Shown here: piece by piece, positions 19,540 to 20,102 of the stretch
Position numbering within the stretch: position 1 is the stretch's first letter
Layout: each line of letters begins with the position of its first letter
From: an uncultured bacterium
Lineage (GTDB): Bacteria; Bipolaricaulota; Bipolaricaulia; UBA7950; UBA9294
Length of the DNA stretch: 64,000 nucleotides
Assembly: GCA_903857865.1 (NCBI GenBank)
Contig: CAIOGO010000013.1
Coordinates: forward strand, 58,963 to 122,962
Direction: 5' to 3'
The notes under the pieces: model-generated
What the model saw: the letters and a program-made list of their open reading frames with translations, nothing else
Database searches by the model: none
Told to the model about the DNA's origin: nothing
Made by a program: the position numbers and the translations under genes

Positions 19540-19590
19540 CTACTCTCCGATGATCTTGACGAGCACGCGCTTCTTGCGGCGGGGGTCGAA
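19540..19590 (-). pseudogene. Detached YjbQ C-terminus, copy B
   Basis: On the minus strand this reads [16 protein letters not shown] and a stop, the conserved YjbQ C-terminus. It is separated from copy A by a perfect 10-bp hairpin (19593-19602 with 19618-19627) and differs from copy A at several residues, so it is not a recent exact duplication. Confidence 0.8.
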
Positions 19591-19634
19591 GAGGCGAGCG
19601 CGCCAAGGTCCTGAGTGCGCGCTCGCCCTTCGTC

Positions 19635-19685
19635 TTAGTCTCCGATAATCTTGATCAAGACGCGCTTTCTACGTCGACCGTCGAA
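19635..19685 (-). pseudogene. Detached YjbQ C-terminus, copy A
   Basis: On the minus strand this reads [16 protein letters not shown] and a stop. It is the natural continuation of the yjbQ gene, from which it is cut off by hairpin array F (19702-19747). Confidence 0.82.
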
Positions 19686-19701
19686 CGGACCAGTAAGGGC
19701 A

Positions 19702-19747
19702 GGAGAACAAGCTCAGCCCGTTCTCCCCAGCTGCTCCGCAGAGCAGC
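19702..19747 (+). repeat. CTAG-type hairpin array F inserted in yjbQ
   Basis: Stem GGAGAAC/GTTCTCC (19702-19708 with 19720-19726), junction CCAG, stem GCTGCTC with loop CGCA (19730-19736 with 19741-19747). The order and arm GGAGAAC match 11395-11438 of array A. It lies exactly between the codons for GPWEQ and the C-terminal FDG of yjbQ. Confidence 0.85.
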
Positions 19748-20102
19748 CTTGCTCCCACGGGCCGAGGTCGAGACTGCCATCGGTGATCGCGAGCACAACC
19801 TCGCGGCCCATGATCTGGCGCTTCAGGTGCGCGTCGGCGTTGTCCTCGCCGGTGCGGTTGTGCTCGTAGACGCTCGTCGGCTCGTGCGGCGCGAGCTTCT
19901 CGAGCCAACGTTCGAAGTCGGCGTGCAGGCCGCCTTCGTCGTCGTTCACGAACACACTCGACGTGATGTGCATGGCGTTCACGAGGCAGAGGCCCTCGCG
20001 GATCCCGCTCTTCTCGACGGCGGACGCCACTCGGCCCGTGATGTTCACAAACGCGCGGCGGTGAGGGACGTTGAACCAGAGCTCTTCTCGGTAACTTCGC
20101 AT
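19713..20102 (-). pseudogene. yjbQ: YjbQ-family protein, C-terminus cut by a hairpin insertion
   Basis: YjbQ (UPF0047) proteins are small trimeric enzymes linked to thiamine-phosphate synthesis. The 129-residue frame keeps the family core: [15 protein letters not shown], the [27 protein letters not shown] region with metal-binding His residues, and [13 protein letters not shown]. Right after GPWEQ the frame enters hairpin array F and ends within it, adding [11 protein letters not shown] in place of the usual last 20 or so residues. The missing end is found just beyond the insert (19635-19685). Most catalytic residues are retained, so partial activity is possible, but the C-terminal strand contributes to trimer packing in relatives. 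Confidence 0.85.

Follow-up and report, generated by a model that had tools for sequence, protein, structure and literature searches.

A double-hairpin element, most likely REP-like, inside a bacterial yjbQ gene with an older repeated 3' end

In the window, i.e., the whole 64-kb stretch of DNA analysed here, yjbQ (the single PF01894 gene of its genome) reads normally on the minus strand from 20102 to 19749, the last base of GPWEQ, then runs into two hairpins and stops at an in-frame TGA (19715-19713). Two different versions of its C-terminus follow on the same strand (Table 1). The question raised by this locus is how a gene came to end beside two copies of its own end, and whether the hairpins brought these copies along. 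The layout had been described in a sequence-only reading and is confirmed here. The evidence makes two layered events likely: a tandem 3' end in the ancestor shared with the congener G003, and a later insertion of a palindromic dimer carrying no C-terminus.

An interrupted gene and its intact relatives

Downstream of GPWEQ, 63 nt occupy the place where relatives have 15 nt coding for I/VFYGE; these five codons are missing here and present in all of the approximately 60 relatives listed. The 63 nt correspond to a 48-nt element plus 15 nt, as many as the missing VFYGE block would take up. Together, the two hairpins reach a minimum free energy (MFE) of -32.3 kcal/mol (z = -5.8 vs. shuffled sequence), and the insert (19748-19700) scores 41.7 bits with the covariance model R2 of the dispersed family described below, which was built without the yjbQ copy. 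Most likely, the element is a REP-like palindromic dimer that inserted into yjbQ and truncated it. It would have entered between the codon of Q118 and that of the next residue, in this lineage only, with 15 nt lost or overwritten at the same time. The insert preserves the frame but supplies the TGA, leaving a protein devoid of its last 21 residues and probably non-functional. The truncation seems tolerable, since no PF01894 gene was detected in the congener G002. A point against this explanation is that the 15 nt beside the element are unlike the VFYGE codons, hence the insertion was not clean. Neither a TnpA cleavage site nor a target duplication was identified.

The net insert being 48 nt, copy 1 of the C-terminus is still in frame, the TGA aside, and differs from its G003 counterpart by four silent changes and one conservative change. 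This conservation beyond the stop implies that the insertion is recent or that the end is still under selection. If the TGA were read through, yjbQ could still be functional, with a 16-residue in-frame insertion reminiscent of the iorA linker, which has in-frame hairpins in three genomes; the net length of 48 nt and the conservation of copy 1 would agree with this. Such read-through is improbable, given that TGA is a stop in the gene calls of this genome, the conserved VFYGE block is lost and no recoding signal was seen. Among other candidates, programmed bypassing of the insert was rejected for want of matching take-off and landing codons, and a TGA recoded or read as selenocysteine because nothing seen in its context spoke for it.

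Table 1. Features of the yjbQ locus (window positions) and other genes with repeated 3' ends (genome positions; G000 is the genome under study)
Feature	Position	Strand	Basis or remark
CTAG hairpin upstream of yjbQ	20159..20202	minus	G001 has a related hairpin in the corresponding position, G003 has none
yjbQ (UPF0047) frame up to GPWEQ, 118 codons	19749..20102	minus	PF01894, 101 bits, profile positions 1-98/117
Hairpin 1, GGCTGCTC TGCG GAGCAGCT	19729..19748	minus	folding and element model
Hairpin 2, GGGAGAACGGGCTGAGCTTGTTCTCCT, containing the in-frame TGA	19701..19727	minus	folding and element model
15 nt at the VFYGE place, GCCCTTACTGGTCCG, unlike VFYGE codons	19686..19700	minus	comparison with G003
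C-terminus copy 1, 16 residues, yjbQ's own end	19635..19685	minus	92% identical to G003 copy 1
44-nt spacer with stable hairpin, homologous in G003	19591..19634	minus	repeat and folding
C-terminus copy 2, 16 residues, outside yjbQ	19540..19590	minus	nearest G003 copy 3 (83%), G001 single end (81%)
Candidate third, decayed C-terminus copy	19463..19510	minus	25/48 nt, shuffle p = 0.016 (weak); direct repeat D2
ahcY 3' end, 3 copies	G000:C10:141842
gmhB 3' end, 2 copies, double-hairpin element between	G000:C8:58355
recJ 3' end, repeated downstream	G000:C10:118523
folE 3' end, 3 copies	G000:C3:35160
lolD 3' end, repeated downstream	G000:C20:123206

The relative age of the insert and the repeat emerges from the congeners. 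In G003 (behind the same CsgG-like gene) and in G001, yjbQ is intact and syntenic, with no element at the insertion site, and the gene is uninterrupted there in the other relatives checked; hence, the insertion is derived. The earlier claim that the hairpin units move is upheld by these empty sites and intact genes together with the fit of the insert to a covarying dispersed family. The comparison with uninterrupted yjbQ proposed in that reading shows the empty site; G003, intact in frame, has the repeated end.

In the window, copies 1 and 2 (50 nt each) are 74% identical and spaced by 95 nt; the spacer hairpin between them has a perfect stem, as described previously, of 11 bp rather than 10 bp (arms 19593-19603 and 19617-19627; longer if a bulge is allowed), with an MFE of -32.1 (z = -5.7 vs. 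shuffled sequence). In G003, a second C-terminus lies downstream of the intact gene, also at a 95-nt spacing. The G003 spacer hairpin (GGCGAGCG..CGCTCGCC) is homologous to that of the window, with one compensatory pair change (noted by eye) and a different loop. A decayed third copy follows, with a double-hairpin element between copies 2 and 3. Since G003 has trailing copies without the insertion, the second C-terminus was there before the insertion, and the element did not carry it. The ancestor shared with G003 would have had a 95-nt unit (the last 16 codons, the stop and the post-stop hairpin) in tandem, in at least two copies, one of which would have been stranded outside yjbQ; neither C-terminus came with the element.

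Of the account of the double 3' end given in the sequence-only reading, the part that stands is that one end is a diverged copy of the other. The idea of a hairpin element bringing a substitute C-terminus is not supported and is rejected because of G003; copy 1, which follows the insert, is the gene's own end, and the yjbQ element does not qualify as a carrier. An assembly artefact joining two yjbQ loci or strains, conceivable in a draft genome of 22 contigs that is apparently a metagenome assembly, is highly improbable. Misassembly of two yjbQ loci, named previously as a refutation, is argued against by the lone PF01894 gene and by the independently assembled G003 with its identical 95-nt spacing and spacer hairpin, as well as by the membership of the insert in a family found throughout the genome.

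A dispersed family of paired hairpins

The genome was rebuilt from its stretches (78 kb reads N) and searched for patterns resembling the insert. The two-hairpin descriptor gave 47 matches vs. 2 in a shuffled genome. The family shares a common plan: HP1 (GGCT..AGCT), usually followed by A, and then HP2 (GGGAG..CTCCT), the two meeting at a common CTAG core within the constant motif of the aligned copies, AGCTAGGGAG, while the stems vary between copies. The alignment of 16 copies, from which that of yjbQ was excluded, shows pairing in 99% of pair cells and a covariation of 0.35 vs. 0.09 in shuffles, and HP1 is closed by a G:T pair in every one of the 16. With the covariance model, this genome yields 65 copies; the three congeners have 16, 32 and 16, two genomes of genus g13 have 25 and 26, and one of g4 has 11; outside the bacterium's own family, there are practically no copies. 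BLAST of the 208-nt region against its own genome gave no strong second match, because the stems vary and the structure model alone detects the family. The element has no match in Rfam, and the Rfam search of the window returned two tRNAs and nothing else.

Most copies are extragenic: 45 of the 54 listed sit between called genes, and two of these 45 occupy divergent gaps, though such gaps make up 22% of gap length. In an iorA-like gene (G000:C14:198901-198980, L261), three element-type hairpins lie in frame in the linker, and different hairpins occupy the same place in G004 (L262) and G002 (L263). A four-hairpin array at 1475-1650 of the window includes two nearly identical hairpins spaced by 110 nt. 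Two short ORFs start or end at double-hairpin elements (G000:C20:112116-112470 and C14:85108-85396); we take them to resemble the 3' part of ORF6N-type genes.

The elements are perhaps mobilised by an IS200-like (RAYT) tyrosine transposase. The genome has four Y1_Tnp genes, two of them at most 1.7 kb from an element. Across relatives, Y1 genes and elements do not go hand in hand; in G015, for example, there are 25 elements but no Y1 match. In the window, a RAYT-like Y1 transposase ORF of 293 aa (14673-15554) lies near several double-hairpin elements at 13071-14070.

Two groups of palindromic elements invite comparison. REP elements and their dimers are palindromic repeats tagged with GTAG and CGTC (PMC3733652). 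Like REP with RAYT, the family is made up of short hairpins in which a tag is constant and the stems vary, and which often form dimers or clusters. These are mostly located between genes, with some intragenic cases, are patchy among relatives and share the genome with Y1-type transposases; the many dispersed short palindromes typical of REP are found as well, as the copy number from the covariance model indicates. Unlike in REP, the core is CTAG, within the constant motif, and the terminal GTAG/CGTC tag is not present; moreover, the hairpins come as a fixed pair, and the stems vary from copy to copy inside one genome. The Rickettsia palindromic elements (RPE) lie within protein genes, in many cases without disrupting the frame (PMC10969869). 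The present family resembles them in palindromic insertion into protein genes, the iorA hairpins being in frame. RPE, at about 150 bp, encode a conserved peptide, whereas the element described here has 48 nt and brings a stop to yjbQ. Neither an RPE sequence nor a CGTC tag was found in the aligned copies. Overall, the element is best filed as a REP/RPE-like palindromic dimer within a gene having a pre-existing tandem 3' end.

The double-hairpin elements of fungal mitochondrial DNA are likewise small dispersed units of two adjacent hairpins; the host here is bacterial. The yjbQ locus presents a CTAG-cored palindromic dimer caught in a bacterial gene whose empty site is known in congeners, and the dimer comes from a family in which pairing is maintained although the stems vary from copy to copy. 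Such a case allows the origin and movement of REP-like hairpins to be put to the test.

Origin of the repeated 3' ends

A search with the last 25 residues of each gene against its downstream 400 nt gave eight matches at a score of at least 45 and none in mismatched controls. If a small ORF with perfect repeats and a distant match that is perhaps a paralog are excluded, five genes besides yjbQ have diverged 3'-end repeats (Table 1; gene names by reading the proteins). In the genome-wide look for such genes beside hairpins, suggested previously, an element was found between the copies at gmhB. Among 80 control loci of other bacteria, none of 554 genes had a match with a score of at least 42 within 130 nt of the stop; set against five at a score of at least 45 in the 1478 genes of this genome, the comparison is underpowered. 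Elsewhere, the folE end is found in two copies in G001 and one each in G002 and G003, and the ahcY end in one copy each in G001 and G003.

The copies differ chiefly at synonymous sites (pooled pS 0.64, pN 0.14). The resulting pN/pS of 0.22 (0.13-0.33) compares with about 0.6 simulated for a neutral outer copy and is biased downwards, as the cases were picked by protein similarity, which favours low pN. The synonymous bias fits displaced alleles or selection.

Plain tandem duplication of gene edges, by slippage or hairpin-stimulated template switching and with later decay of the outer copies, has somewhat less than an even chance of being the origin of these repeats. Local direct repeats that have diverged occur in 61 regions, most of them intergenic. 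Local duplication has occurred at yjbQ itself, because copies 1 and 2 of G003 are 92% identical, and the 5' end of folE is repeated outward as well, in G001 as short tandem units. Still, old outer copies should have gained amino-acid changes, and the pN/pS, even if biased, is below the neutral expectation.

End replacement, with copy 1 as an imported diverged end and copy 2 as the displaced native one, is a tentative and rather unlikely alternative; it could resemble the gene hybrids of Allomyces and Glomus mitochondria or result from one-sided illegitimate recombination of incoming DNA, and it is not mutually exclusive with the later hairpin insertion. Besides the synonymous bias, it agrees with the lower GC content of copy 1 (50%; gene body 65%, copy 2 62%), with the identity to the single end of G001 (0.81 for copy 2 vs. 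0.71 for copy 1) and with folE, where the outermost copy is closer to the single end of G003 than the gene's own end is (0.91 vs. 0.79). Together, the GC content and the identities are a weak indication that copy 1 is the new arrival, copy 2 representing the native type. At the same time, the choice of cases by protein similarity favours low pN, the donor was not found (the best match of copy 1 outside G003 is 0.82), the G003 copies show that plain local duplication happens here, and the 44-nt spacer lacks an endonuclease or integrase.

In Allomyces and Glomus mitochondria, mobile endonuclease ORFs bring a foreign C-terminus into the gene and push the native one aside, in atp6 of Allomyces and in atp6, atp9, cox2 and nad3 of Glomus (PMC3630166). 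Hence, the earlier assertion that no described element carries substitute C-termini was wrong. A diverged second C-terminus beside the gene, with copies differing mostly at synonymous sites, is common to both systems; at yjbQ, by contrast, there is a 44-nt spacer with no endonuclease ORF, and the double hairpin came in later, as an insertion of its own. Nor does the locus fit the att-site model, with an integrase-bearing element between gene ends: 44 nt lie between the copies, and the 95-nt spacing is also that of G003. If the trailing ends are displaced alleles, the 3' ends of bacterial genes are exchanged piecemeal, as described for fungal mitochondria. It is doubtful that a process of this lineage repeatedly swaps the last 10-30 codons of genes (yjbQ, folE, ahcY, gmhB and others) for diverged homologous ends and strands the old ends beside hairpins, without an endonuclease or integrase. 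A search on short-patch double illegitimate recombination found no paper in the library covered.

Two further candidates were discarded. A longer homology of copy 2 via an in-frame GPW directly ahead of it (SGPWRARL|FDPRR) is taken to be chance, the motif being absent from the G003 spacer, and the copy 1/2 differences are not adenine-specific, unlike the pattern of diversity-generating retroelements (changes at template adenines only). Gene starts are repeated, too: one diverged copy of the folE 5' end lies upstream of the gene here (G000:C3:34545-34602), the several short tandem units of G001 are located upstream of its folE (L294), and in G003 a 130-nt diverged tandem repeat spans the start of an mnmG/gidA-like gene (L242, 4496-4734).
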